Shown piece by piece: positions 6,494 through 20,010 of a stretch of 64,000 bases of DNA. Numbering within the stretch: the stretch's first letter is position 1; the number at the start of each line of letters is the position of its first letter. Source of the DNA: Vibrio crassostreae (GTDB lineage Bacteria > Pseudomonadota > Gammaproteobacteria > Enterobacterales > Vibrionaceae); contig NZ_AP025476.1 in assembly GCF_024347415.1 (NCBI RefSeq), positions 1,922,001 to 1,986,000 on the forward strand, read 5' to 3'. The translations under genes were made by a program, and so were the position numbers. The notes under the pieces were generated by a model. The model saw only the letters and a program-made list of their open reading frames with translations. It did not search any database and was not told the DNA's origin.

Positions 6494-8242
6494 TTAAAGC
6501 TGACTGGTTGGTCGGTAAGGGTTTCCATTGGTCGTTTTGTGCCCACTTTCAGAAATTAGATACAAGTGCTTCCTCGCTCTAGACGAAATCACATAAAGTA
6601 ATCTTCTCGCAACATAGTTCTGATGTGACCTACTACAGTCGATAATGTCATTCCAATGCGGGACTTTACCATTAAGCAGGCCTGTACAGATAACAACGTC
6701 ATATTCATCCCCTTTCGTTGAATGGCATGTAGTGATTTTTACTCCATTCGAAGATGAAAAGAATCTGCTCAAGTCTGATGCCTTGTAATCCATCCCATAC
6801 TTAGCCATTCGTTCCGTAGTAGCACTTAGTATGCTTTGTTTAGCTTTACAAGCTTCAGTCGTCTCATAAAGATCAATCTCCAGATTTTCGCAAGCTTTCT
6901 CAATAACTAGCTCTATCCAAGGTTCAATTTCACTATTCATATTGAGCGATATGGAATTAACCGTTTTTAGTAGCACTCTTGGGTCAATTCTATCCTGAGT
7001 AGAACCCGCATCATACAATTTATCGGATAGTTCGATAGCCAACCTACGACGCTTAACAAAGTTATTCATATTAACTTTAAGCAACACTAACCGAATCAAT
7101 GGAAGCCATAGGTTGTCTTGATTCTTTGGAATTGGTGAAATCAAAAAACCATCAATGTCGAAGGATTTCGCTAGTGCATCAATTCCTGTAGATAATGCCA
7201 TCACATCGAACCAACTAGGACAAACTACTGCTATATCTTGCCCTTCAATTCCCTGCGCTAAATGAGTCTCAATAATACCTTTGACATACTCAGGCAATTG
7301 AGTTTTATCAACAGTAGACTCTAAGTGAACCACCGACGGGAATTCCTTAAGTTCAGATAGAGCACTAACCTCATAACCAGCATCTTGATACCTAAGATAG
7401 TGGTTGATGACTTTTTGACTGCTACGAAAACAACCAGTAAGGCGCTTCTCTTCTATTCCCTTATCTAGATCAAAAAAATGTTCTAGTTCTTTCTTACCTT
7501 TTACTACAGCCCCTAATCCCGTGTAAATAGCCTGCTCTTTATCCCCAATCATAGTGAGTTTAGTTTGTTTGTGAGAAATAATTAGCTTGAGAATCTCATA
7601 CTGCATCGCCGACGTATCCTGATATTCGTCGACTAGAACGTGGTATAAAAGTTTTGCTAAACGGCGTGCTATCTGTGGATTGGCGACAAGTAATCGGTAG
7701 CTGATGTTGAGAATTAGGTCAAAGTCTATGTAACCGTTAGTGGCCAAATAACGATGGTAATCAATTACGATCTTATACTCAACCGAGCCTTTTTTATACA
7801 CGGGTTCATAATCGCAGTTAAGTGAAGTAACTATCTGGTCATAACCTTTTTTCTTGTAGTGTATTTTTAGCTCTACTAACTTGGCTTCTCGTTCGTGCTC
7901 ATCGATGACCACAAACCCGCCACATAAACGAGGTATATTATTAATATTGGGTCTAACAATCCATTGAAGGCAAAAGGCGTGTATGGTTCCCACCCATAAA
8001 GAGTTACTTTCTACTCCGTATGAAAGCAACCTTTCAGTGATAGTATCTGCTGCGATGTTTGTATAAGTGATAGCTACTACTTTACGCTTACCTATTAACA
8101 AATCGTCAGAGTTATCTAAGATATGATAAAGCTTAGAAACCAGAGTTTTGGTCTTGCCTGAGCCAGGGCAGGCAGAAAGTAGCATATCGTCAACGTAAGT
8201 AACTGCATCCATTTGCTCTAGAGTTAGGTTTCGATATGGCAT
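6494..8242 (-). CDS. gajB: UvrD/Rep-type helicase, Gabija GajB-like
   Basis: 582 aa, superfamily 1A helicase: Walker A PGSGKT at 25-31, motif Ia region AITYTNIAADTI, motif II DEYQDT at 205-210, motif III-like MIGDKEQAIYTGLGA, motif IV region RLTGCFRSS, motif V/VI region TTCHSTKGDEYDVVI and ARRLLYVISSRARK near the end. In Gabija, GajB senses nucleotide depletion or DNA ends and works with the GajA nuclease. It starts inside the stop codon of gajA (TAATG), so the two are translationally coupled. It is somewhat longer than the well-studied B. cereus GajB (about 490 aa). The pairing with an OLD-family partner makes the call strong; another OLD-UvrD subtype is the alternative. Confidence 0.85.
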   Translation of the reverse strand: MPYRNLTLEQMDAVTYVDDMLLSACPGSGKTKTLVSKLYHILDNSDDLLIGKRKVVAITYTNIAADTITERLLSYGVESNSLWVGTIHAFCLQWIVRPNINNIPRLCGGFVVIDEHEREAKLVELKIHYKKKGYDQIVTSLNCDYEPVYKKGSVEYKIVIDYHRYLATNGYIDFDLILNISYRLLVANPQIARRLAKLLYHVLVDEYQDTSAMQYEILKLIISHKQTKLTMIGDKEQAIYTGLGAVVKGKKELEHFFDLDKGIEEKRLTGCFRSSQKVINHYLRYQDAGYEVSALSELKEFPSVVHLESTVDKTQLPEYVKGIIETHLAQGIEGQDIAVVCPSWFDVMALSTGIDALAKSFDIDGFLISPIPKNQDNLWLPLIRLVLLKVNMNNFVKRRRLAIELSDKLYDAGSTQDRIDPRVLLKTVNSISLNMNSEIEPWIELVIEKACENLEIDLYETTEACKAKQSILSATTERMAKYGMDYKASDLSRFFSSSNGVKITTCHSTKGDEYDVVICTGLLNGKVPHWNDIIDCSRSHQNYVARRLLYVISSRARKHLYLISESGHKTTNGNPYRPTSQL

Positions 8243-10362
8243 TATATTTCGACAAACCTCACAAAAGTATCACCATCATAGAAAGATTTATACACCTTCA
8301 GTTTCTCGTCAAAAGTATCTACTTCGTTGATTGCAGCTTTTTCCTCCGCATTCATTTCCTCGAGATTAAACGCCATCATTTTCAACAATATATCGTCCAA
8401 GTTTTTTCCAGTAAGAGAGAACTTAATCGATCGTAAAATATAATCAGGTAGCAGATTATTAATTTGTGTGTGCCCTGCCATTTGCGTAGCCAACCACCCC
8501 TTGCCAATCTTCTTAGCAAACTTAAGAGCACGGTTATATCTAACACGCAGATCCTTATCTTTGATTTCGCTCTTAACACTAGTCAGTCGCTTGCCTTTTT
8601 TATAGTTAGAATCCATAAGTTTTGTAAATAAATCAAAGTTTTGAGTAAGTTTTACCAATTCTGTTTCAAAGGTATTCTGTGCATAAAATGCTTTAACATA
8701 TGGATTATCCTCTACATATTCATCTAAGGCTTCTTTTCGTTCCTTCCCCGACTTATCTGCATTCATTTGAGACTTCACAAAGTCGTCAGTGGCGAATGTA
8801 TCATTGGTTTCGGTTACAAAAGCTTCGTCTAGATCTGTAAGAATTGCACAATAATTCCTTATTCGTTCCTTATGGAAAAGGTCAGATATGTGTTTGAAAA
8901 CTGTACCGTCCATCTTTATCAGACTAACCCCCATCTCATCTAAACTTACTCCAAGAGTAGATTTAACAAGCGCTGGTATGAGGATTAGCTCAGCATCTCC
9001 TTCGACTAAAATCACACTTTTTGCAAAGAGTATGTCGCTCCTCACTGCATCTAAATAACGCTCAATACATTGAATATTGTCCCTTTCTAGCATATTGGAA
9101 GGTAGATACACCTCTGTTTTTGTCTGCTTTCTCGACAAAATGTTCATAGATGAAATCTTTGACACAGAGCTAATCTGAGTTGAATGGGTGGATACAAATA
9201 CCTGAGTGTTTTTGAAGTTGAAGTTCTCAAAGAGCGTTTTTTGAATGTGCGTATGTATATGAGCTTCAGGCTCCTCAATCATCAAAAAGTGTGTGATGTG
9301 ATCATCACTATCTCTGATTACCTCATATTCGTAGAGTTTTAAAGCCAAGTATATTAAATTCGCTCCACCCAAGCTGAGGTCTTCAATTCTTCCAGTACCT
9401 TGGTAGTCCAACGAATCTTCAACGACCAAGCCTAATGATTGAACTAACTCTACAAAATCTTCAGGTAGTTGGGATGACACTCTGATCTTCGGAGAATACG
9501 TAGACCCTATCGTACTAACTAAAGAACTGGATATATCTTCACTCAGGGCTTTTATCTCAGGGATCGACGATATCTTGTTGTTTATATCAATAATGTCGTC
9601 TACAACACTCTTATCATCTTCAATCTCTTTGCTTTTTAGGGTTAGTAACTTATACAGTGGATTCGTTTTATAGTAGCGAAGGTCTGCGACAACATTTCTC
9701 AATGCTTTGACGTATGTACAAGCAACTTCATTTAACAATGAGAAATACGGTGGTTTCTTATTACCGAATGTAGCTTCACTTTCTTTGCTTGGGTCAGGGA
9801 ACTTATACTCATCAAAGTCGCCTACCGTAGCCTTATACGTATTATCATCGGTGAAATCGAGCTTAGTTCTAACGAAAGCGACTGGCTCATACGTATCGCG
9901 TGTAATTGCCTTTGATTTTAGATAGCCTTGGATTGCTTCAGAGCGTGCAATCTTGTCATCGTGCTTACAAGTTAGCTCATACAGATCTTGTCTTATAGAA
10001 AACTTAGGGCGATAAATAAACGAGTATGTACCATTAGAAGAGTCAACTTTTTTGCCTTCATCATTCAAGATATAGTTCGACAAAACTTGCTGCTCTTCAG
10101 AATCAGTCAACCCTTCAAAGTGCAGAGTTATTACGACCCAATGCCCAAATGGCTCGCCGATTCCACGATGGAAATCATCGGCACTTAGAAACTTTGAATT
10201 TGCTGGTAAGGAGTCATCTAGAATAAGACGCATAGCTTGGAATACGTTTGTTTTACCAGACGCATTTTCTCCAATAACTGTATTAACTGAGTCTTTTTCG
10301 AAGTAAAAGTTTGAACGTTCAAAGTTCTTGAAATTAACAATGGACAACTGACTGATATACAT
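8242..10362 (-). CDS. gajA: OLD-family ATPase/TOPRIM nuclease, Gabija GajA-like
   Basis: 706 aa. Walker A GENASGKT at 31-38, ABC signature LSLGG at 329-333, Walker B FLMIEEPEAH at 359-368, H-loop STHSTQ at 391-396. The TOPRIM nuclease domain follows: ILVEGDAE at 451-458 gives the catalytic Glu, LTDLDEAF at 508-515 the acidic DxD, and NTFETELV near 565 matches the downstream metal-site region. This is the class 2 OLD layout (with a UvrD partner). GajA cuts DNA when nucleotide pools fall during phage replication. Longer than B. cereus GajA (about 580 aa), with extra sequence mostly between the ATPase lobes and after TOPRIM. First gene of a two-gene operon; promoter should lie just above 10362. 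Confidence 0.88.
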   Translation of the reverse strand: MYISQLSIVNFKNFERSNFYFEKDSVNTVIGENASGKTNVFQAMRLILDDSLPANSKFLSADDFHRGIGEPFGHWVVITLHFEGLTDSEEQQVLSNYILNDEGKKVDSSNGTYSFIYRPKFSIRQDLYELTCKHDDKIARSEAIQGYLKSKAITRDTYEPVAFVRTKLDFTDDNTYKATVGDFDEYKFPDPSKESEATFGNKKPPYFSLLNEVACTYVKALRNVVADLRYYKTNPLYKLLTLKSKEIEDDKSVVDDIIDINNKISSIPEIKALSEDISSSLVSTIGSTYSPKIRVSSQLPEDFVELVQSLGLVVEDSLDYQGTGRIEDLSLGGANLIYLALKLYEYEVIRDSDDHITHFLMIEEPEAHIHTHIQKTLFENFNFKNTQVFVSTHSTQISSVSKISSMNILSRKQTKTEVYLPSNMLERDNIQCIERYLDAVRSDILFAKSVILVEGDAELILIPALVKSTLGVSLDEMGVSLIKMDGTVFKHISDLFHKERIRNYCAILTDLDEAFVTETNDTFATDDFVKSQMNADKSGKERKEALDEYVEDNPYVKAFYAQNTFETELVKLTQNFDLFTKLMDSNYKKGKRLTSVKSEIKDKDLRVRYNRALKFAKKIGKGWLATQMAGHTQINNLLPDYILRSIKFSLTGKNLDDILLKMMAFNLEEMNAEEKAAINEVDTFDEKLKVYKSFYDGDTFVRFVEI

Positions 10363-10606
10363 GAGTATTAAGCTCTAAAGATTGGCTTTTTTCGAATTAA
10401 GCGATAATAAACTACTTTAGCTACTGTACGTGTGACGAGGCTCGATTTATCGCATTTTTGAATCACCACCGTATCAGTAGGCACATGCCGACCATATCAG
10501 TATGTAACCTGCACCAGATTGAATCATTAGGAAAGTTTGTCTAAATATGATGCTCAGGATTGTTTTGATTAATGGCTCTAAGTGGAAATGGGGCAAAGAC
10601 GATTTA

Positions 10607-10869
10607 CGAAACAACTTGTTTCGCATTTTTGCAAGACCCTCTTGCAAAATTTAGGTATTAAAATTTGTCCAACAGGTTGTTGGACAATTTGGCCATGTAG
10701 GGGTTGTTGCAAACTCTGCAACTACTGAGGATTCCTCGGTAATTGTTCATTAGCTAATCCTATGGTTTTACTGTGGCTCCTGAAGCATTGGGGTATCTCT
10801 GAGTTACGATGATAGGTACCTCTAGTTTTCACTCCACATCGCAACTTGCGCATCGCAACTTGCGATGTG
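10607..10869. repeat. Array of five or six short hairpins
   Basis: Inverted repeats read directly: CGAAACAA/TTGTTTCG (10607-10623), TTTTGCAAGA/TCTTGCAAAA (10627-10649), TTGTCCAAC/GTTGGACAA (10665-10687), GTTGCA/TGCAAC (10706-10722), GAGGA/TCCTC (10727-10737) and CACATCGCAA/TTGCGATGTG (10835-10869, with a nested palindrome at 10851-10867). Loops are 1-5 nt except in the last, whose 15-nt loop can refold. Most share a CAA/TTG core. None has a T-run, so they are not ordinary terminators. Confidence 0.7.
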
Positions 10870-11340
10870 TGATTACTTAAAAGTTCTCAAAGTAAGATTA
10901 AAGATTTTAATAAATAAAAATCATAACCTTAAGGATGAACCCCGTTGGACCATTGTTGATAATAGTAAGCATTAGAGGGCGAGCATATCACTTAAAAAAC
11001 GGTCCTAAACAGAGAGGTTTGCTAGTTTATTAGTAGCGTTGCTTTTGACACTTCGAGTTATGTTCCTAATTTCGCTAGATCATATATTCAGCGAATTGTC
11101 TTCGTATAGGTTAGCTAAAGAGCCCATGGCATTATATAAGTAAATTAGTAGCGAGAGCTTGGAGAAGTTTCCCTGGAAGTAGTTAGTACCAATAGGCCCA
11201 CATAGAAAACCTCAAAAACTTCACTTCTGCATTCCGGAGGAGGATTAATGCTTATCGATATTGAATGTTTCAGGAGCAATAACTGAGGCCACTCTAACAA
11301 TGCTGGCATTTTCATGAGACGCGACAAAGCCGGCAATCTC

Positions 11341-11516
11341 TCGACCAATTCTTTTAAACTTTTTAGTCGAAAAAGAAATAACATTTACTTTTCTGGTCGA
11401 GATTATGCTCAAATCCTAACTTCGACCAAAAGGGTCAACTAATAGAGTGCTGTGTTCGACCAGGATAATTAAACCTTTTAGTCGAGTGACTATTTGAATT
11501 AACCTCTTTGGTCAGA
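11341..11516. repeat. Cluster of GTCGA motifs
   Basis: Seven matches to TTTT(A/G)GTCGA or its complement in 176 bases: TCGACCA at 11341, TTTTAGTCGA at 11361, TTCTGGTCGA at 11391, TTCGACCAAAA at 11421, TTCGACCAG at 11455, TTTTAGTCGAG at 11476 and the degenerate TTTGGTCAGA at 11507. Both orientations occur. Looks like a multi-site protein-binding region; the binder is unknown. Confidence 0.55.
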
Positions 11517-11855
11517 GGCGTGATAGCTATGAACTGCGTTAGCTTGTTTGTTTGAGGAAGTAAGCTTGCTGCATTCGGTTCTTCGCTTTACACTGATAGC
11601 GAGAGCCTCGGTTATCCCTGCTTTATTCTTTGAGTTACTATTTACTGTCTGGCCAGAAGTAATGGTATCAATTTGAATCTAGCGTAATTGCAAAGCAGCC
11701 CACCGAGGACATACGATAGGCCTAAGGTACTCTCCCTCCCATATTTGGTGATGAAATACCAGGCACCGCACCCAGAATTCAAATTAATGAAAACATTCTG
11801 TACGTAGCTGTTATACAACAACCTGTGGCTTTGTCGTATCTGAAAGAAAGAGCAA

Positions 11856-11878
11856 TTGTGCAAGGACTTCTTGCACAA
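11856..11878. repeat. Inverted repeat, 9-bp arms
   Basis: TTGTGCAAG (11856-11864), loop GACTT, CTTGCACAA (11870-11878). Same CAAG/CTTG core as the hairpin at 10627-10649. It lies just past the stop codon of the antitoxin-like gene and could stabilise its 3' end. Confidence 0.6.
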
Positions 11879-11930
11879 ATTATTTTACTGCCATCTAAAT
11901 TGATTGAGTTAAAACTGAAGGTTAGCTAGT

Positions 11931-12182
11931 TTAAAATGGGAAGTGATCTTCTTCATACCCTTCAACCCAAGTTACTAGCTTTTCAAGCTCATCACCCTCG
12001 GGTGTGCCTGGTTCAGCCACATCAAACAAGGATTCAATTCTTTTCAAAACGGCTTTATAGTCGCTTTCTGAGGGTTCTAGTCCCACTTCATCTAATGAAA
12101 CTGTAGCAAGCCCATCAGCGTGGGCAGTATTAGGTGTAATACCCTTAAGCAGTTCTTTTTCTGATAGCTTTTTCTTGCTCAT
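11931..12182 (-). CDS. HigA-like antitoxin, short form without HTH
   Basis: 83 aa. Residues 43-83 (YKAVLKRIESLFDVAEPG..., TPEGDELEKLVTWVEGYEE, HFPF) match the N-terminal dimer region of HigA-type antitoxins, which normally continues into an XRE helix-turn-helix. Here the protein stops exactly at that point. The first 40 residues (KKLSEKELLKGITPNTAHAD) resemble the C-terminal toxin-binding tail of AbrB/MazE-type antitoxins, so it may be a chimera. No toxin gene is adjacent on either side. It could be a remnant, an orphan antitoxin or a small regulator. Start ATG has a weak AAACGAC upstream. Confidence 0.55.
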   Translation of the reverse strand: MSKKKLSEKELLKGITPNTAHADGLATVSLDEVGLEPSESDYKAVLKRIESLFDVAEPGTPEGDELEKLVTWVEGYEEDHFPF

Positions 12183-12304
12183 AAGTCGTTTCTCGATTCG
12201 AAAATGACATTAGATTAGTTTATAGCACAATGGACTACTAGCCGTAATGTAGAACCTTATTCAAATAGTTTCATGCGCTCTAAACACGTCTTGGGGGCAT
12301 TTTT

Positions 12305-12327
12305 GAGCTAGCAGCATTTACTAGCTC
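12305..12327. repeat. Hairpin next to a TTGGGGGCA motif
   Basis: Arms GAGCTAG (12305-12311) and CTAGCTC (12321-12327). A TTGGGGGCA motif ends six bases upstream (12291-12299), giving the same motif-plus-hairpin arrangement seen at 3756, 19836 and 28056. Possibly a further, decayed border element between the antitoxin-like gene and the helicase operon. Confidence 0.45.
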
Positions 12328-12448
12328 TTTCGGGTAGGAGTAATCCAAAACTGAAGTGTGGTATTAACGAGCCTCTAAGCCGCGCCACCCAGAGTCAAAA
12401 CGCTGAATTTTGATTGAGTTAAACGACTTGGTAAAACAATAAGCCTAC

Positions 12449-13828
12449 TCAAGAAGCCAAAAATGCCGATATTACCCGCTGTCTAAAAGCTCCGAGCCGA
12501 AGCTCATCAAACGCGCCAAGTGCGACATCAATACTCTCAGTGTTCCTTGTCGTGCTATTCCATACCAGCTTAGAGCTAAGTCCTCCTCGCTCTTCTAGCA
12601 GCCCCTTTTCGCTAAGACGGTTGTGCTTAGTATCTGGCTCGGCTTCTGCAAACTTTTCCCATTTTGCATATATACACGACTCAGGAATATCTTGTTCAAT
12701 CCTTTCTGCATAGTCAATCAAGCTTTGTTCAGCAAAGGTGAATAACCACGCTTGTTGATTTGTCGCGCCGTTCACACGAAGAATTCGCCCGAGCACCTGT
12801 CTGAAGTACAATTCGGTTTTGACTGAACTCATGTGACAACACACTTGAAGGCGCGGAATATCGGTTCCCTCACTAATCATTCCAACGCTAACAATCCATT
12901 GAGTATCGCTTCGTCTATAACGTTCAATCTCTGCTAAAGGCTCTTCATGCCGATAGGTCACTATTGAGACCGATTGAGCATACTTTTCAAAAAGTACCTT
13001 TTTAATTGTTTGTGCGTGTTGAACTGATGCAGCAACAATTAACCCTCCAGCCGTCGGGGATCGAGAACGGATTTCTTCAAGCTTTTTGCAACCCAATCCA
13101 AGTAAGTACTCCATTGCATCTTTATTATGAATGATGCTTTGATATGAGGACTTAGTCTGCTTAATCATTTCCAATATTGAAGAAAAAGACTCCACCTTCT
13201 CATCGCTCGTCACGGTCAAATGTTCATTATCAACCAAAACAATCTTAGGGGCTCTGCAAACCTTATCGCCGATTGCTTGTTTTAACGTGTATTGATAATC
13301 AACCAAAAGTATTCCGTCAGGATCGCTGTACTGTCCCAATACTATCGGCAAAGAGTCTGAACGCCACGGAGTCCCTGAAAGAGCAAGGGTATACGTTGCC
13401 AGCCCTTGAATCTTTGCAAGGACTTGTTGCCCCCAAACATTCGCATTTTCAACCTCTGTACCAGAGCAGTGGTGTATCTCATCAAAGACCACAAAAACTC
13501 GATGATTTCTTAGCGTCAGCCAAAACTCCTCATTTAGAAATTGAATCGACTGATAAGTGAGAGATCGTCCAATAGAACCTAACCCTCCATTAAAGGTACA
13601 ATTAAGAATCTGTGAAAAGGTTTTCTTTATTCCGCTTGAAACCGTTAAAGAAGGTGAGAAACATAATACAAGGTCGATCTTGTCCTCTTGCATCAACCTT
13701 GAAGCGACCGTCGCAGCCAGTACCGTTTTTCCAGCCCCTGGAGTTGCTTGGCAGAAGAAGTGCTGCTGGTTTGAGCTGTATTTCTGTAATGCCTTCTCTG
13801 AGCATTCTGCCTGCCATGGCCTTAGCAC
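12449..13828 (-). CDS. Superfamily 2 DEAD/DEAH helicase
   Basis: 459 aa. Motif I TPGAGKT at 29-35, motif II DEIH at 116-119, motif III SGTPW near 155, motif V region GMISEGTDIP and motif VI QVLGRILR near 340. This is the compact UvsW/RadD-like form: ATPase core only, with no nuclease or specificity domain. It overlaps the stop of the upstream 177-aa gene by 7 bases, so they form a coupled operon. With the divergent XRE gene it makes a self-contained three-gene unit. Role unknown: either DNA repair/replication help for the island or part of a defence system. Terminator not obvious downstream. Confidence 0.8.
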   Translation of the reverse strand: MLRPWQAECSEKALQKYSSNQQHFFCQATPGAGKTVLAATVASRLMQEDKIDLVLCFSPSLTVSSGIKKTFSQILNCTFNGGLGSIGRSLTYQSIQFLNEEFWLTLRNHRVFVVFDEIHHCSGTEVENANVWGQQVLAKIQGLATYTLALSGTPWRSDSLPIVLGQYSDPDGILLVDYQYTLKQAIGDKVCRAPKIVLVDNEHLTVTSDEKVESFSSILEMIKQTKSSYQSIIHNKDAMEYLLGLGCKKLEEIRSRSPTAGGLIVAASVQHAQTIKKVLFEKYAQSVSIVTYRHEEPLAEIERYRRSDTQWIVSVGMISEGTDIPRLQVCCHMSSVKTELYFRQVLGRILRVNGATNQQAWLFTFAEQSLIDYAERIEQDIPESCIYAKWEKFAEAEPDTKHNRLSEKGLLEERGGLSSKLVWNSTTRNTESIDVALGAFDELRLGAFRQRVISAFLAS

Positions 13829-14355
13829 GACTGGTTATCCTCACAAAGTGTTTTGAGAACACTGGTGAGTACATTCACTCTTCCTAACAACTGCGCTGAA
13901 TGCTCTCTTGCTTGCTCAAGAAGTGGAAGCAACCTCGGCTCGAGTTCAGGAAAGCGGCTACAGAGAGATTGATACTCATTAATCTCCCCAAAAACAATCT
14001 CTAGCTCACCTTTGTACTGATTGCGTTCATGTCTTAATACCGAGTAATCAGACGAGGTGGAAAAAGTAACCTTAGTTTTGTCTGATGCAGTATCGATTTG
14101 AAGGCCTTTAAATAAGTCTGTTTGAAAGTATCGTTTCTGCTGCCCCGTCCCTTCAACTCGAAGCCAATTGTTCTTCACCAAACGAAGGAGCTGTCGATAA
14201 ACCTTACGACGAGCATCATCCAAATCAACATAGGAGTCATCAATCGAAACAAATGCATCTCTTAGCTCAACAACTAAAAAACCATCCATCTCTTTTTCAA
14301 TCAATAGGTTGTGCATTTCATCACTGATTTTCAAAGAACGCTTCATGTACCGCAT
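13822..14355 (-). CDS. Helicase-associated protein with winged-helix-like N-terminus
   Basis: 177 aa; a second ATG three codons in (14346, MKRSLK) is an equally good start. Residues 20-90 (VVELRDAFVSIDD, DDARRKVYRQLLRLVKNNWL, GTGQQKRYFQTDLFK) look like a winged-helix DNA-binding unit with a wing hairpin. The C-terminal 70 residues are helical and probably coiled coil (GELEIVFGEINEYQSLCSRF; PLLEQAREHSAQLLGRVNVL). No family recognised. It precedes and overlaps the helicase gene and likely serves as its DNA-binding or loading partner. Its promoter region carries the twin palindromes at 14367-14420. Confidence 0.65.
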   Translation of the reverse strand: MRYMKRSLKISDEMHNLLIEKEMDGFLVVELRDAFVSIDDSYVDLDDARRKVYRQLLRLVKNNWLRVEGTGQQKRYFQTDLFKGLQIDTASDKTKVTFSTSSDYSVLRHERNQYKGELEIVFGEINEYQSLCSRFPELEPRLLPLLEQAREHSAQLLGRVNVLTSVLKTLCEDNQSC

Positions 14356-14366
14356 ATACCACTAAA

Positions 14367-14387
14367 ATACTAAGGATTGCTTAGTAT
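14367..14387. promoter_or_regulatory. Operator palindrome 1 for the XRE regulator
   Basis: Perfect arms ATACTAAG and CTTAGTAT with spacer GATTG, eleven bases upstream of the 177-aa gene. The same core CTAAG-N5-CTTAG recurs at 14402-14420. Matching sites in the divergent intergenic region next to an XRE gene are the standard autoregulation layout. Confidence 0.8.
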
Positions 14388-14401
14388 ACAGAAATCAGTA
14401 A

Positions 14402-14420
14402 AACTAAGAAAATCTTAGTT
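14402..14420. promoter_or_regulatory. Operator palindrome 2 for the XRE regulator
   Basis: Perfect arms AACTAAG and CTTAGTT with spacer AAAAT. Centre-to-centre distance to operator 1 is 34 bases, a little over three helix turns, so two dimers could bind cooperatively and silence both divergent promoters. Confidence 0.8.
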
Positions 14421-14448
14421 ACCGTGAAATCAAAGAAATGAAACTTAA

Positions 14449-14769
14449 GTGCCATTCGAAAACCCAATTCCAGTGCGGCTCAAAGAAGCCCGCAAAAAAG
14501 CAAACCTCTCTCAAAAAGCATTGGGAGTACGTATAGGTATGGATGAAAGCTCTGCTAGCCCAAGAATGAATCAATACGAGAAGGGTAAACACACCCCAGA
14601 CGTACAAACCTTAAAGCTATTGGCCGATGAACTAGGTGTGCCTTTAAGTTACTTTTTCTGTGAAGATGCAAGCGCCGCAGAACTAGCATGTATTGTTTCT
14701 CAAATGACAGAGAGTGAGAGGAAAGAATTAATTTCATCATTGCTAGCCAAAAGTAAACGTGAAGTCTAG
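14449..14769 (+). CDS. XRE-family transcriptional regulator
   Basis: 106 aa, GTG start. A canonical XRE domain covers residues 9-68: RLKEARKKANLSQKALGVRI, then the recognition helix (SASPRMNQYEKGKHTPD) and LKLLADELGVPLSYFF. The short C-terminal tail (LACIVSQMTESERKELISSL) is typical of small stand-alone repressors. It is transcribed away from the 177-aa/helicase operon across the twin CTAAG operators and most likely represses both directions. Such repressors often guard costly or toxic genes in islands. Confidence 0.85.
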   Translation: MPFENPIPVRLKEARKKANLSQKALGVRIGMDESSASPRMNQYEKGKHTPDVQTLKLLADELGVPLSYFFCEDASAAELACIVSQMTESERKELISSLLAKSKREV

Positions 14770-14908
14770 TTGCATATCCAGACTTAGATTTGGTCTGCGG
14801 CCTGACTAAATAGGTACTATTTAGGATCTTCCTTTACTGTTTCTTGTTGGCAGAATTCAAAGTCGCTTGGTGATCACACACTGGTTTATATCGGCGCTAG
14901 AACGTTTC

Positions 14909-14973
14909 TGGACATTTCTGAGTTAGAGACTTTGCTAATTTTACGGATAACGGATTAGCTCAAGTATCGCAAA
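14909..14973 (+). repeat. Module-border repeat, copy C (short form)
   Basis: TGGACA, then GAGTTAGAGACTTTGCTAATT, ACGGATAA and CTCAAGTATCGCAAAG, in the same order and orientation as the other copies; ACGGATAA is shared with copy A. The more divergent of the short copies. Marks the left border of the SMEK/radical SAM operon block. Confidence 0.6.
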
Positions 14974-15007
14974 GAGTTTTGAACCATTAAGGCATCATTA
15001 CTCTAAC

Positions 15008-15060
15008 GCTGTGGTCCAATTCATCGAACCACAGCAGTACCGTTGTTTAAGAAAACAACG
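15008..15060 (-). terminator. Two adjacent hairpins after the radical SAM gene
   Basis: Perfect 8-bp stems: CGTTGTTT/AAACAACG (15041-15060), eleven bases past the radical SAM stop codon, and GCTGTGGT/ACCACAGC (15008-15035). No long T-run follows on the minus strand, so they may act in 3'-end stability or weak termination. Confidence 0.5.
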
Positions 15061-15070
15061 TAATTGGTAT

Positions 15071-16105
15071 TTACCTGTTTCCACAAACTACAAGCTCATC
15101 GAATAGTGGGCAGCCGTTCATACAAACTGAGCTGTGGCTACAGACCCCACAGCGATCCGAGCTGAAATAACGTCGAAAAGATTTGAAGTTTTTAGATTTT
15201 ATCCATATATCTAGAAGCTTTGTCTTATTATTTAACTGCTCTCCTTCTACTAATCCAGCCTGAAAAGAACAGGGATATACTTTTAAATCTTCTGATACAT
15301 ACAACGAAAATCTACCTGCATCGCATGCGTCCACCATTGACGTATTAGCGTTCGTTCGCGCAAAGACGCCGCTGACGCAACAAGCATCAAAACCAACTTT
15401 CAGCTTTCTTTGCTGAGAGGTAGCTAATTCAAAAAGCTCATTTAGCCTAGGGCTATTACGCAAGAGCCTTTCTTCAAAAACTTTTCTACCAGATGGTTTG
15501 TAATTTAAGAATATTATAGCGTTTATTCCTGTAAGAAATTCAGGGGGCTGTTTTAGCCAGTCAATTGCGGTGTCAACGCTCTTGGCGTCCAAGATAAAAT
15601 GAATATTGGTTTTGACACCGAGGTTGTTCAGCTTCTTTAGCGTCCTAGCTGCCTCATCGTACGGTGGATACGCAGAAACAGCTACAGCACCACAATACTT
15701 GCGAGTAGCACTAAGGATTTTATCGCTCAATCCACGACCGTTCGTTGTATAGTTAGGCACTATTCCTTTGGAATATGTATATTCTAAAATCTCTAAAAAA
15801 TCAGGATGCTGATTAGGGTTTCCGCCTCCTAAAGCCACCTGAAATGTATGCATGTCTGCTGCTTGGTCAATCACTTTCTTGTAATCATCTAGCGCCATAT
15901 GTTTGCCGTATTTCGTTGATGATTTGTAGCAAAAAGGACAACCTTTATCACACCAATTTGTGATTGAAATATCCATCAACTCAGGTCCGTGTGGTGACCA
16001 GAACGGCTCTCTCTTCCCTTTGTCAGGAACCCGAGCGAAGAAACCATTATCTGGATTGAAAAAGGATGTATAACCCAAATTATTATATCGAATAGCTTTT
16101 AACAT
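15071..16105 (-). CDS. Radical SAM/SPASM peptide-modifying enzyme
   Basis: 344 aa. The radical SAM cluster motif C-x3-C-x2-C is at C52, C56 and C59 (NWCDKGCPFCY); a glycine-rich SAM loop ALGGGNPNQHP is at 91-101. The C-terminal SPASM/Twitch region has cysteines at 261, 279, 319, 322, 328, 332 and 341 (CGVCSHSSVCMNGCP), enough for auxiliary iron-sulfur clusters. Enzymes with this layout usually modify ribosomally made peptides or proteins. No RRE leader-binding domain is apparent. It is the last gene of a four-gene operon and begins three bases after the 132-aa gene, its most likely substrate or partner. Confidence 0.85.
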   Translation of the reverse strand: MLKAIRYNNLGYTSFFNPDNGFFARVPDKGKREPFWSPHGPELMDISITNWCDKGCPFCYKSSTKYGKHMALDDYKKVIDQAADMHTFQVALGGGNPNQHPDFLEILEYTYSKGIVPNYTTNGRGLSDKILSATRKYCGAVAVSAYPPYDEAARTLKKLNNLGVKTNIHFILDAKSVDTAIDWLKQPPEFLTGINAIIFLNYKPSGRKVFEERLLRNSPRLNELFELATSQQRKLKVGFDACCVSGVFARTNANTSMVDACDAGRFSLYVSEDLKVYPCSFQAGLVEGEQLNNKTKLLDIWIKSKNFKSFRRYFSSDRCGVCSHSSVCMNGCPLFDELVVCGNR

Positions 16106-16108
16106 TAT

Positions 16109-16507
16109 CTACCACACATTGTTGTAAGCGTTGATGTAGAAGCTGTCTGACTCAACCTCAAACATAGACACACACAACAACGATTCTGCAAGGGAGCCAT
16201 CGCTGCTAAGTTTTGATGTTGTGACAATTTTTCCTTGTTCAATGGCATCTTTCATTTTATTTACAACATCCGGAGTAAATTCATATGCGGCAAAGCTTTC
16301 GGCATCTTCTTTTGTTAATACCTGCTTTCCGGAATCACGTAGCGAAGTTTTAATTTCGTTGTACATTTGATAAAATAAATCTCCTACAGGGCCTTCTCTG
16401 TCTACTCCAACGGCTTCGAAAAAAGCTTCCTCGTTCAACTCTTCGTCTGAAATGTACACAAACGATGTGGACGAGCTATTTGATATAAAATCAAATTTAA
16501 CCTTCAT
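16109..16507 (-). CDS. 132-aa protein with SNSSSTSF motif, possible modification target
   Basis: Starts MKVKFDFISNSSSTSFVYIS; the GAGG ribosome site overlaps the end of the preceding gene (11-base overlap). From memory, an N-terminal K(V/I)(K/R)xxF(I/V)SNSSSxSF stretch recurs in otherwise unrelated small bacterial and phage proteins; its function is, to my knowledge, unexplained. The rest is acidic and helical (DEELNEEAFFEAVGVDREG) and ends in aromatic/asparagine-rich FYINAYNNVW. The position directly before a radical SAM/SPASM gene makes the serine/threonine-rich N-terminus or the C-terminal tail candidate sites of modification. That role is inference. Confidence 0.7.
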   Translation of the reverse strand: MKVKFDFISNSSSTSFVYISDEELNEEAFFEAVGVDREGPVGDLFYQMYNEIKTSLRDSGKQVLTKEDAESFAAYEFTPDVVNKMKDAIEQGKIVTTSKLSSDGSLAESLLCVSMFEVESDSFYINAYNNVW

Positions 16508-16868
16508 TATTAGCCTCTTCTAACTTTTTAATACATTCCAGAACAGTACCTAGCTTATTATCTTCAAAGTCTTCATTGATGATCTGCGGTAACCAATCCA
16601 CAATGAACACACTACTTGTTTCTAGCTCGTCTTCACTTAGAGTTTTGCCATAACGTGCTATCAGGTAATCTGTGAAGTTTGCATACTCCACGCAATAATA
16701 CTTTTTGAATTCAGCTTTGGCTTCAATAGATGCTACAAAAAGTGCATCGAAAACAGTTCCAAAAAGCTGCTCGCCAAGACCTCGAGGAGATATTCCCAAT
16801 GCTATAAGAAACTCCTCTTTATTTGGCTTCCATGAGGTCGTCAAAATTAGCGCTATGTCGCCTCTCAT
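16497..16868 (-). CDS. Small acidic protein of the SMEK/radical SAM operon
   Basis: 123 aa from the ATG at 16868, which has AAGGA nine bases upstream and overlaps the ATPase stop (ATGA); a longer frame reaching 16922 is not needed. Starts MRGDIALILTTSWKPNKEEF. Mixed alpha/beta composition, one cysteine (YYCVEYANF), acidic C-terminus. No family recognised. It ends by overlapping the 132-aa gene by 11 bases. The tight coupling of all four genes implies they act together. Confidence 0.7.
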   Translation of the reverse strand: MRGDIALILTTSWKPNKEEFLIALGISPRGLGEQLFGTVFDALFVASIEAKAEFKKYYCVEYANFTDYLIARYGKTLSEDELETSSVFIVDWLPQIINEDFEDNKLGTVLECIKKLEEANNEG

Positions 16869-19510
16869 TCTTCTATTTCCTTCAAACAATTCTGCACTTT
16901 TGTAGAAACAGCATTTCTGCATACTTCAATTGCACCCAGAACTTCTGGTGTGTGTTGAAACTTAGAAAAGAAATTGAGAGTACTTTCTTTCACATCCCAA
17001 TGAGCATATGGAACAAAATGTAATGCCATAGCTAAAGCCGGAATACCCAACCCCAATTGTTGCTCTTCTCTAAGATCCTTCAAGCTATTTAGCAGGTTGC
17101 TAACGTTATCCCGCCAGATATGGCGTCCGCCATAATAGCTAGAGCTAGAAAACATTACTTTCATGAAATGTTCGGATTCTATCTCATCAAGTTTGCTAAC
17201 ATGATCTAGTAAAATTCGAATGTTTAGGTGGTCCGACTCTTCTCTTTTTCTAAACAAGAACCAAGCAACAGCCCGAAGGTTACTTTCCTCGGATCTATTC
17301 TTCAAAGTACCTTCGACTCTAACCACGTCTTCGGGGGTTTGAATATCTGCTGATAAAAGTGAAAGATTGTTCAGATAGTGATTTGAGAAGTCTTTTGAAG
17401 ATTCACATGCAGACAAAACTGTATCGTTTCTTTGCTTCCGTGCCAAAATATACGCGTAACGGAAAAAACCTTCATAGACTGGCCATTCGATGATTTTTTC
17501 AAAAATACTATCAACTTTTAATTGATGCGCTGAAAGTTCAGTCACAGTATAAAACGCAAGTAAGAAATCACGCAGTTCATCGTATGTAAATGAAATATTT
17601 TCAATACCTAAAGATGCAAGCCCTGTTGATGGGACCTCTCTTCGCAAAATGATATCTTCCCCAATCAGTTGTTCAAGAATCTGCCTCTCGGATTCATCCC
17701 CTTCAACAGGTATCTGAGAAAAAATTCCATCTTCCAACATTCGTCTACATATCTTATACAATGAGTTCAATACGTTACGCTTAGAGTGGTGAGGGAACTC
17801 ATTCACCTTCATCATCAAGTATTTCTCTAGAATATCTCCTTTGTAGATATCCGGAACATATCCAATATTCTTGTTCTCGTTAATTTCTGAGAAAATTCGC
17901 AGTAAAATAAGATCGTTTTTTAAGAACTCAGATGCATTATTTGAGAACTTGCCTTTGATATTGAAGTGGCTTAGATAAGCATCAAGAAGTCTAACTTTAT
18001 TTTTGTCCGACATTTTTTGGCGAAGATCTTTGACACGGTATACGAGATTGGAGTGTAGAGATTCGAATACACTAGCAAACTTATGATCGAAAAATTCATT
18101 CCTACAGGTAAAGATGATCTTTACATATTCATACTGGCACATTGCATCTAGGAAAATTCGAAGCTCAGCAGCAAATCTATCAAGATCGCCAACTTCATTT
18201 ATTCCATCAATGGCTATCACAAAAGGCTTTTGACACTCTTCGGCAACTTTGTTTAATAGTGTTAAAAGGTCATGGAGGTCTTGGACATCTGGAGCATATC
18301 GGTTGTTTTTGATGTACGACAAAATGCGATTAGGACCCGGATGATCATTCAGTGCACGTGCAGGAATAAAGGCTGTGGGAATCTCAAATGATCTAAATTG
18401 GTTTTCAATTAAATCGCAAATGAAGTTTGTTTTCCCTTGCCCTGCCATGCCCGTGATTAAAAATATTTTGGCTTGTGTAATTCCAATTTTTTTTGAAACC
18501 TTTTCGATAGAGCTGAACACTCCGCTTCCGCTCGATTCGATACTGTGTTGAAAGACATCCCAGTAGCCTGACAAGTAACCCTCAGGTACAAACCGTTCAG
18601 CTCGTTCACCATACCAAGAGAACGGAGAAAGATACTCTTGTATGTCTTCGAGCGCAGCACGTTGCTTAGTCAGACGTTCTTGAAGCTCATGCATGCTACT
18701 TGGCGATTCTAAAGCTGTTATTTCAAGTAAACTATCTATTACAGGTTCAATTTTCGCTTTTCTTAAAAGCTCATTAAAATGAACTAGGTTGATTCGCCGT
18801 ATATCGTCATCAATCTTTCTGAAGAAAAACATTGGATTTGCGAAGTACCTCATCTCCTCTTTCGTTTCTGAGGTTTCAACAAACACTGATGGTATGTATT
18901 TTCTTGTTCGCTTTTCATCCTCTATTTTTAGCTGATTAACCCTTAAGAACTCATCCAGATTTCTACGAAATTGGAGGTTAACATCCGTCCGTTGGAATTC
19001 CTTTTCAAGATGGCCATTGATGTATTCAAGTTGCTCATTACTAATTTCATTGAGCAATTGAGCCAAGTCTTGGTAGTCGAGAATATTATTCGATGGGTCA
19101 AACGCAATAGATAGATTCTCCACTGATTGCATCAATTGCTGTGAGGTATACGACTTCTGTCTTTCAGTTATTACATAAACGTAGATGTCGTCAAAATCAC
19201 TGCCAAGGTTGTGAGAATCGAATTTCTTCAACGTTTCACAGATTTTAGCGCTTGAAGCATCAGAAGTAATTTGGATTGAAACCCTACTAGTTTTACATCC
19301 AAGGTCAACTGCCGGAAAATTCATTCGGATTCGATTTTGATTTTGTAGATCGGGGCAGTTTAGAGCTGTCGCTAAAATAGGAATCAAGAAGTCCTCCGCG
19401 ACAGTGTTTATGTCAAATTGCCCCATCGCATTCGCTACCTTCACCTCATGAGCAAAACGGCCTAAAAGAGTACTTGATTGTTGCAGAAGTTCTTGTCGAG
19501 TCATATCCAA
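16865..19510 (-). CDS. SMEK-domain STAND/NACHT-type ATPase
   Basis: 881 aa (start is a TTG at 19510; an ATG two codons in, at 19504, is equally possible). Residues 1-110 match the SMEK domain found at the N-terminus of many bacterial conflict ATPases: AVDLGCKTSRVSIQITSDAS followed by AKICETLKKF. The D ... IQIT arrangement recalls a PD-(D/E)xK nuclease core (inference). The ATPase shows Walker A GMAGQGKT at 354-361, Walker B VIAIDGINE at 431-439 and a sensor strand IIFTCRNEF at 465-473, as in STAND/NACHT NTPases. The C-terminal 400 residues are helical and may hold the sensor. STAND proteins of this kind detect phage proteins and trigger an effector. First gene of the four-gene operon. Confidence 0.8.
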   Translation of the reverse strand: MDMTRQELLQQSSTLLGRFAHEVKVANAMGQFDINTVAEDFLIPILATALNCPDLQNQNRIRMNFPAVDLGCKTSRVSIQITSDASSAKICETLKKFDSHNLGSDFDDIYVYVITERQKSYTSQQLMQSVENLSIAFDPSNNILDYQDLAQLLNEISNEQLEYINGHLEKEFQRTDVNLQFRRNLDEFLRVNQLKIEDEKRTRKYIPSVFVETSETKEEMRYFANPMFFFRKIDDDIRRINLVHFNELLRKAKIEPVIDSLLEITALESPSSMHELQERLTKQRAALEDIQEYLSPFSWYGERAERFVPEGYLSGYWDVFQHSIESSGSGVFSSIEKVSKKIGITQAKIFLITGMAGQGKTNFICDLIENQFRSFEIPTAFIPARALNDHPGPNRILSYIKNNRYAPDVQDLHDLLTLLNKVAEECQKPFVIAIDGINEVGDLDRFAAELRIFLDAMCQYEYVKIIFTCRNEFFDHKFASVFESLHSNLVYRVKDLRQKMSDKNKVRLLDAYLSHFNIKGKFSNNASEFLKNDLILLRIFSEINENKNIGYVPDIYKGDILEKYLMMKVNEFPHHSKRNVLNSLYKICRRMLEDGIFSQIPVEGDESERQILEQLIGEDIILRREVPSTGLASLGIENISFTYDELRDFLLAFYTVTELSAHQLKVDSIFEKIIEWPVYEGFFRYAYILARKQRNDTVLSACESSKDFSNHYLNNLSLLSADIQTPEDVVRVEGTLKNRSEESNLRAVAWFLFRKREESDHLNIRILLDHVSKLDEIESEHFMKVMFSSSSYYGGRHIWRDNVSNLLNSLKDLREEQQLGLGIPALAMALHFVPYAHWDVKESTLNFFSKFQHTPEVLGAIEVCRNAVSTKVQNCLKEIEE

Positions 19511-20010
19511 ATGAAATCTAAGCTATTAATTTAAAATCATATTTACATGCTCAACAGTACACTAATGCCCGAGTATGGTCTGTGTATAGATCAACAAATT
19601 TGGTATCTAATGATGAGAGTTGAATACTATGTTTCAATAGATAACTTAAGATTGTATCTAGTGTCACTATTCTACTGAACTAATTGTGCAATAACCTATT
19701 GCACTATTGGGTGCTGGAGTTAACCTAACAGCACTTTGGAAGTGGTCTCTTTCACGAAGTAAGCGGTACTGATTTTAGTCAACGGCCTATTGACCTAATT
19801 TTTGTTATGAAGGTTTACTGCTGCCCAAACACGGTTTGGGGCACTTTCTAGTTAGAAAATGCCACGGGTAAAATTCAACCTGAGAGTTTTTTGGACAGAA
19901 ACGTGTCAGCGAGTTTCCTAAATTAGTGATTTATGAATCACTTCAAGTATTGCAAACCTCCAATCAAGTGGCCAAATTCACTCAGCCACTACAGTACCAC
20001 TACACTGTTG
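19511..20010. other. Intergenic stretch with repeat copy B
   Basis: About 500 bases between the SMEK operon start and the end of fucO. Contains the hairpin GTGCAATA/TATTGCAC at about 19686-19704, the imperfect TTAGTCAA/TTGACCTAA repeat at about 19775-19799, and the long border repeat. The SMEK operon promoter must lie in the first 200 bases. Confidence 0.55.
19834..19990 (+). repeat. Module-border repeat, copy B (long form)
   Basis: Direct repeat of 3754-3910. Starts TTTGGGGCA, hairpin arms GGCACTTTCTA (19840-19850) and TAGAAAATGCC (19853-19863), then TTTTTTGGACA, GAGTTTCCTAAATTAG and CTTCAAGTATTGCAAA. A preceding TGCCCAAAC (19822-19830) can also pair with GTTTGGGGCA. It ends 20 bases before the fucO stop codon and separates the defence block from the fucose operon. 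Confidence 0.85.

Follow-up and report, generated by a model that had tools for sequence, protein, structure and literature searches.

What could a radical S-adenosylmethionine (SAM)/SPASM enzyme, two small proteins and a STAND ATPase with a SMEK domain do together in one bacterial operon? The question is raised by a four-gene cassette of Vibrio crassostreae, located in a 64,000-nucleotide stretch of contig NZ_AP025476.1 (hereafter the window, meaning the whole stretch of DNA that was analysed). All four open reading frames (ORFs) lie on the minus strand: the STAND ATPase gene (16865..19504, encoding 879 amino acids (aa) from its ATG, or 881 aa from an alternative TTG start at 19510), the gene of an untagged 123-aa protein (16497..16868), the gene of a 132-aa protein with a short N-terminal tag, the predicted substrate of the enzyme (16109..16507), and the radical SAM/SPASM gene, hereafter rSAM (15071..16105, 344 aa). 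From the first gene to the last, neighbours overlap by 4 bases (ATGA), overlap by 11 bases and are separated by 3 bases, which confirms the coordinates and junctions of an earlier, sequence-only reading that had noted four genes on one strand with stop/start overlaps. As far as sequence comparison can tell, this tag is part of a tag–rSAM module that is widespread in viruses too, and the proposed modification of this tag by the rSAM is strongly supported by the co-occurrence and covariation of the two.

The tag, MKVKFDFISNSSSTSF, comprises residues 1-16 of the 132-aa protein (16460..16507, minus strand). In the family of this protein (257 homologues at E<=1 among 278 candidates), the tag consensus is MKx[KR]x[DG]F[VI][ST]NSSSTSF, and F7, N10, S11, S12, S13, T14, S15 and F16 are invariant among 32 aligned members with identities down to 29%. 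F7-x-[ST]9 is present in all 35 cassette tags. The motif F-I-SNSSSTSF, which the sequence-only reading associated with the N-termini of many unrelated small proteins, is therefore real, with eight residues invariant in these 32 members and a place at the N-terminus of small proteins that are mostly unrelated. Neither small protein has a Pfam match above the cut-off. Structure prediction of each protein alone, proposed earlier as a check, gave AlphaFold2 (AF2) predicted local distance difference test (pLDDT) values of 92.9 for the 123-aa protein and 84.1 for the 132-aa protein. The 123-aa protein has no tag, but it has a 50-column core in common with the 132-aa family (hhalign probability 92.4, P=5.2e-7) and is probably an untagged relative, judging from this profile alignment. 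Its own profile had no match at E<=0.1 in the viral ORFs examined, cassette loci apart.

The arrangement is conserved. An rSAM scan taking one genome per species yielded 36 loci, and 31 of them contain all four genes in the same order, mostly with few-base overlaps or gaps (among these, the ATPase is cut by a contig end in L024 and split in L017). The other five have a partial rSAM only, one cut by a contig end and four reduced to C-terminal halves behind unrelated DNA; these four halves (L032, L034, L036 and L038) begin at residue 151, 159, 177 or 196 and keep an open frame at 75-79% identity. Three further non-duplicate cassette loci came from the viral collection. Proteobacteria, Bacteroidota, Verrucomicrobia and one cyanobacterium are among the cassette record titles, together with a 5-kb contig labelled Micrarchaeota (L004), for which a binning error is possible. 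Relative to the proteins of the window, the rSAM is the most conserved product (50-88% identity) and the STAND protein the least (23-77%). Among plasmids, the rSAM and the full-length ATPase occur in one and the same set of seven records, and five other plasmid matches cover only 16-20% of the ATPase, at its SMEK end.

Both tag and enzyme are rare. Of 398 genomes sampled from the window's phylum, only the window's own has the rSAM at E<=1e-30, in a single copy (the other weak match in that genome is a different protein, 1.1e-4, with 35% identity over residues 45-125). The tag, at E<=0.001, was likewise found only in that genome among the 398, and the one positive genome among 296 sampled Bacteroidota is the cassette genome used as centre. 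When 30 genomes, standing for 30 of the 36 loci, were searched for the tag, exactly one was present in each of the 25 with a whole cassette and none in the 5 with a partial rSAM. Given the common gene order in 31 of 36 genome loci and the presence of the tag in only 1 of 398 genomes of the phylum, the operon is, by these comparisons, a conserved unit and not a chance arrangement. The co-occurrence check proposed earlier thus supports the reading of the genes as one unit. No intact genes gave the opposite picture, an rSAM with small genes that lack the ATPase by chance, since rSAM plasmids and full-length ATPase plasmids coincide and the partnerless rSAM genes in genome loci are partial.

The same pairing is found in viruses. 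A tag-first search with two codon-restricted patterns selected 22 viral stretches. In 21 of them the tag is genuinely N-terminal, and a single contig often bears it on several different proteins (L062 was spurious). An rSAM of the cassette family is present in 15 of these 21 records, and four of the 15 (G014, G015, G017 and G022) look like one virus lineage. Among viral contigs selected by their rSAM, 45 of 49 contain a tag in the examined flank, and the four exceptions, of the pseudo-T-even type and including KP15, have two tags each elsewhere in the record. The two sets overlap in seven records. After three near-duplicates were dropped from the rSAM-selected contigs (49 to 46), 150 pattern-matched tags were counted in 42 of the 46, one to eight per contig; 149 of them lie on the rSAM strand and 149 have the motif start at residue 7. 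A start pattern fixing only residues 1, 2, 4, 6 and 7 continues as [VI][STNA]NS in 151 of 152 cases, the remaining case being a one-residue variant. A looser count, demanding R or K at position 4, gave 171 viral G-type tags. R4, N10, S11 and S12 are present in all of these, with more freedom at positions 13-15; position 7 is Phe in 169, Trp in one and Leu in one, and position 9 is Ser in 169 and Ala in two.

All four named phages chosen by their rSAM carry tags (two in KP15, two in RB43, five in D479 and two in leB), whereas neither the tag nor an rSAM of the cassette family was found in any of eleven hand-picked large reference phages (T4, RB69, phiKZ, 201phi2-1, G, AR9, KVP40, XacN1, Atu_ph07, SPN3US and S-PM2), in searches that recovered their positive controls (KP15, RB43 and D479 for the rSAM). 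Fisher's test for 49 of 49 against 0 of 11 gives 2.9e-12, for contigs that are not independent. A passage of PMC3468402 lists a QueE radical SAM gene for KVP40-type phages, and KVP40 is without the tag, so the mere possession of some other radical SAM enzyme does not entail the tag. Of the 50,697 INPHARED records, 172-180 have the rSAM.

The proteins behind the viral tags are mostly unrelated by BLAST (61 clusters of 158). Viral tags mix AGY and TCN Ser codons, which argues that the tag is selected at the protein level. The body family of the cassette protein is also viral: L050 matches its profile nearly over the full length (E=2.8e-19, positions 1-125 including the tag) and falls in the same BLAST cluster when the tag is removed. 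For the two tagged proteins each of KP15 and RB43, similarity to the cassette protein is confined to the tag (positions 1-18) and does not extend into the body. In these two phages (L094:2516-6886 and L096:2050-6446, respectively), the two tagged genes flank a protein of about 738 aa, which in KP15 has a metal ion-dependent adhesion site annotation. The largest tagged viral body family (25 members in 14 loci, for example L048:3271-3885 and L053:3332-3823) has CxxC-like motifs suggestive of zinc binding.

The tag also varies with the lineage of the enzyme. In a tree of 62 rSAMs, one branch (Shimodaira–Hasegawa-like approximate likelihood ratio test (SH-aLRT) 100, the deepest split) separates 19 cassette and three phage enzymes from 40 phage enzymes; in a first tree of 76 rows, a branch (96/98) likewise had 23 cassette rSAMs together on one side. 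The phage rSAMs are more diverse than those of cassettes. On the cassette side of the split, 41 of 43 tags have Asp at residue 6 (33 of 35 cassette tags and all 8 viral tags); on the other side none of the 150 does, and the residue is Gly in 138, Thr in 8, Ser in 3 and Tyr in 1. This covariation is as predicted by direct recognition of the tag, though mainly at one split. The earlier hypothesis that the radical SAM enzyme modifies the small protein is thus most likely right, by co-occurrence and covariation, and the likely target is the tag itself.

Which chemistry might the enzyme perform? The rSAM matches Pfam Radical_SAM (3.5e-13) and SPASM (2e-4). Its CX3CX2C cluster motif (15929..15952, minus strand; C52, C56 and C59) and its SPASM-type auxiliary cluster cysteines (15083..15325, minus strand; C261, C279, C319, C322, C328, C332 and C341) are invariant in 19 aligned rSAM sequences, and the CX2CX5CX3C part is absent from the aligned phage relatives. 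Its score against the mycofactocin maturase family is 79.5 bits, below the cut-off of 265. A single phage enzyme used as the query retrieved 2241 database proteins at E<=0.001, not all of which need have the function in common. One 489-aa relative of the rSAM (L147:1423-2892, viral record G024) itself starts in a tag-like manner: MKIRNIRLGFATNSSSSHSIV. Relatives of the phage rSAM from metagenome-assembled genomes labelled Promethearchaeota and Heimdallarchaeaceae (P0289, P0348 and P0351) have about 52-53% identity and perhaps belong to archaeal viruses.

A chemical parallel is offered by the triceptide (3-CyFE) enzymes. For one of them, MscB, passages of PMC11002830 describe a link from Phe C4 to Ser C-beta, and links between residues i and i+2. 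As with MscB, the candidate substrate here contains a Phe-x-Ser motif and the enzyme is of the radical SAM/SPASM type; the aromatic-x-X motif of triceptide enzymes is present, with Phe or Trp at position 7 in 170 of the 171 viral G-type tags. Unlike triceptide substrates, the candidate substrates of cassettes and phages are whole proteins, several per virus, and the rSAM reached no family cut-off (best 25 of 54 matching NCBIfam families). Anaerobic sulfatase-maturating enzymes are radical SAM/SPASM enzymes that are directed by a short motif to whole proteins, and the putative action of the rSAM resembles theirs in this respect; theirs, in contrast, is a single homologous substrate family with an internal motif.

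The large protein was examined for both of its presumed parts. Its N-terminal SMEK effector domain (19055..19474, minus strand; residues 11-150) matches Pfam SMEK_N (E=3.6e-41), and residues 1-182 match PADLOC Aga_REase-PNTD1-PNTD2, the nuclease of short-Argonaute systems (1.4e-49). E37, D67, Q78, T80 and K87 of this domain are invariant in 25 aligned cassette proteins, all of which match SMEK_N. The nucleoside triphosphatase (NTPase) core (18110..18475, minus strand) contains the Walker A motif GMAGQGKT at residues 352-359 and a Walker B-like AIDGINE from residue 431, and residues 248-657 match PADLOC Avs2 PDLC02164 (1.4e-22). For the effector survey, 35 cassettes were considered (the window, 31 genome loci and three viral-collection loci), and the incomplete L003, L017 and L024 were left out. 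SMEK_N was present in all 25 cassettes scanned as SMEK candidates. Among seven diverged cassettes, two from Bacteroidota have other effectors, PNP_UDP_1 in L029 (2.1e-16; PADLOC PN-superfamily effector 1.7e-19) and NNH5 in L030 (3e-11), and the N-terminal effector was not recognised in family scans of L021, L022, L023, L026 and L027. All seven retain an Avs2-like NTPase core (PADLOC Avs2 9.8e-25 to 1.1e-31). These family matches identify the large protein as an Avs2-like STAND ATPase whose N-terminal effector can be exchanged: it is SMEK in the window and PNP or NNH5 in other cassettes. The SMEK-STAND plan described earlier is present in the window, but SMEK does not define the system, being one of several interchangeable effectors.

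Swappable N-terminal effectors are a known trait of the Avs2 class, whose members are activated by phage terminase via a C-terminal sensor. The cassette ATPases have the NTPase core and the region that follows it homologous to Avs2, but they are shorter (819-1047 aa against models of 1317-1576 positions, with best-model matches ending at 658-781 of 1504), they are encoded with an rSAM and the 132-aa and 123-aa proteins, and the window's ATPase scores 54.5 bits against the NCBIfam Avs2 model NF041813, below its equivalog cut-off of 1000. The SMEK N-terminal effector is likewise found in SMEK short prokaryotic Argonaute (pAgo) systems, and SMEK is named as a nuclease domain in a passage of PMC10810196. 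In the cassettes, unlike in those systems, SMEK is fused to a STAND ATPase and is replaced by other domains in the two Bacteroidota loci, and no pAgo or APAZ Pfam match was obtained among the four cassette genes or the ten neighbouring genes scanned.

The surroundings of the cassette in the window resemble a defence island. The genes of a complete Gabija system are found 4.7 kb beyond the rSAM (6494..10362, minus strand; GajB at 6494-8242, PADLOC PDLC00127, 3.2e-201; GajA at 8242-10362, PDLC00072, 1.8e-273). In the same island, a ResIII/RadD-like helicase and an overlapping 177-aa protein without a family (12449..14355, minus strand) are possibly another defence pair, and a regulator with a Pfam HTH_3 domain is encoded on the plus strand (14449..14769). 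The G+C content in 1-kb bins is 37.5-43.5% over 8000-20000 and 44-50% over the fucose genes beyond. In the one same-genus genome compared, fucO and fucA are kept (85-86% protein identity), and none of 12 tested island proteins was found in the 16 kb beside them. Effector exchange, the Avs2-like core and the location beside Gabija in a defence island suggest that the cassette is probably an anti-phage immune system.

Taken together, we think it likely that the cassette moves horizontally and is an immune system built on an Avs2-like ATPase, into which a tag-modifying radical SAM module was captured. The rSAM would recognise and modify the N-terminal tag of the 132-aa protein (MKx[KR]x[DG]F[VI][ST]NSS, then the more variable S[ST]SF). 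The modification might be an intramolecular radical cross-link within the tag, for which a Phe7-Ser9 (F-x-S) cyclophane, as made by radical SAM/SPASM triceptide enzymes, is the best candidate. The modified protein may then pair with its 123-aa relative as a sensor or adaptor that sets the ATPase, and this pair may take over from the greater part of Avs2's long C-terminal sensor. When a phage infects, the ATPase would oligomerise and its exchangeable effector, here the SMEK nuclease, would act against the infected cell, as the domain swap, the defence-island location and family knowledge suggest.

Several observations weigh against this explanation. Six of the 21 tag-selected viral contigs lack the rSAM, although these contigs, of 10-83 kb, are possibly fragments. 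A 19-kb viral contig, L045, has rSAM-related sequence in two ORFs (E 9.9e-21 and 4e-13) and yet no tag; in this contig (L045:4262-7160), the first ORF runs from the CX3CX2C motif into unrelated intein-like sequence, so that both may belong to a single enzyme gene interrupted by an insert. The tagged genes of the pseudo-T-even phages lie about 20 kb away from the rSAM. The covariation at residue 6 is essentially one deep split: two Verrucomicrobia cassettes carry Gly6, and of the eight D-type viral tags, seven trace back to two records with near-copies of these, while one lies on a 10-kb contig without an rSAM. The Leu or Trp at position 7 and the Ala at position 9 of a few viral tags are incompatible with a strict Phe-Ser link, and with the rSAM above no NCBIfam equivalog cut-off among the 25 best families its chemistry is a guess. 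Finally, when 60 of the 171 large neighbours of other cassettes were scanned with PADLOC, the strong single matches to the MkoC, PtuA, MzaA and PDC families (among the 25 of 65 matching families listed) had no matched control and so count only as consistent with a defence role.

The finding of one body family common to cassettes and viruses (L050) also permits a decoy or tripwire reading. In a wider and rather doubtful form, one rSAM of large phages would modify many unrelated proteins in one and the same way at their N-termini. The bacterial copy of the enzyme with its tagged substrate would be a tripwire on an Avs2-like ATPase whose killing domains can be swapped, and a phage that interferes with the tag chemistry, or imitates it, would betray itself. 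The narrower version, which we regard as unlikely, takes the 132-aa protein as a host copy of a phage tagged protein that module-bearing phages, or a partner of tagged proteins, would bind, replace or re-modify, upon which the STAND ATPase fires. The nearly full-length L050 match, the 123-aa profile, with no match outside cassette loci among the viral ORFs examined, and the position of the cassette rSAMs on one side of a branch amid more diverse phage enzymes are in keeping with it; the cassette, however, encodes an rSAM that would be superfluous for a pure decoy, the KP15 and RB43 proteins resemble the cassette protein by their tag alone, and the midpoint-rooted tree is compatible with gene capture in either direction.

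The nearest published idea is that of FxSxx peptides with radical SAM/SPASM genes linked to NTPase conflict systems, according to passages of PMC7159879. Those systems, next to VMAP/AP-ATPase conflict systems, likewise combine a radical SAM/SPASM enzyme, a small protein with an F-x-S motif and an NTPase, but the same passages describe a C-terminal motif, diverging precursors and cleavage by a zincin peptidase, whereas the cassette tag is N-terminal and its body conserved; no peptidase was recognised in a family scan of the four cassette genes. With this precedent, the rSAM could turn the tag into a modified peptide that, once cleaved off, serves downstream of the ATPase as a toxin or a signal, a role proposed in PMC7159879 for FxSxx peptides linked to AP-ATPase effectors. 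We consider this improbable for the cassette: conservation extends to the body behind the N-terminal tag, for which a fold is predicted (pLDDT 84), the family scan of the four genes recognised no exporter either, and viral tags sit on many different bodies, so the bodies matter.

It is also quite unlikely that the tag is a targeting or packaging signal and that the rSAM acts on something else, the two co-occurring merely within a large-phage gene set. The T4 capsid-targeting sequences are an example of such a signal. Tagged genes do form arrays in large phages, and consecutive ORFs of a viral contig (L046:767-2911) have a different near-N-terminal motif, EAFKxP-like, which is reminiscent of capsid-targeting sequences. 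The bacterial cassette, however, keeps tag and rSAM with no virion genes in the operon, the eleven large reference phages without this rSAM have no tag, and tag and rSAM lineage covary. A very improbable proposal, in which the rSAM would produce a small antiviral nucleotide in the manner of prokaryotic viperins, with the small proteins acting as regulators, draws on a PADLOC pVip match (1.6e-12, rSAM residues 47-198) and is countered by a score of 35.6 bits against NCBIfam viperin NF038283, below its cut-off of 180 and exceeded by SPASM-type enzymes such as the mycofactocin maturase, itself below cut-off, by the complete SPASM cysteines and by the close association with the tag.

No description of the tag–rSAM pair was found in PADLOC, Pfam, NCBIfam, PHROGs or the open-access literature, and none of the tag or the cassette in that literature, a scope outside which most subscription papers and bioRxiv lie. 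The earlier remark that no described defence system has this composition stands for PADLOC-DB and the open-access papers searched. No explanation was found for a short N-terminal tag across dozens of apparently unrelated viral protein families, and the close partnership of the tag with one radical SAM family makes its function testable. The tag–rSAM pairing points to an undescribed protein-tagging chemistry used by both the phage and the bacterial side, and the pair could become a tool for N-terminal protein modification. If true, large phages would have a general post-translational modification system, and bacteria an immune ATPase system with a radical-SAM-modified protein as its sensor and interchangeable effectors.

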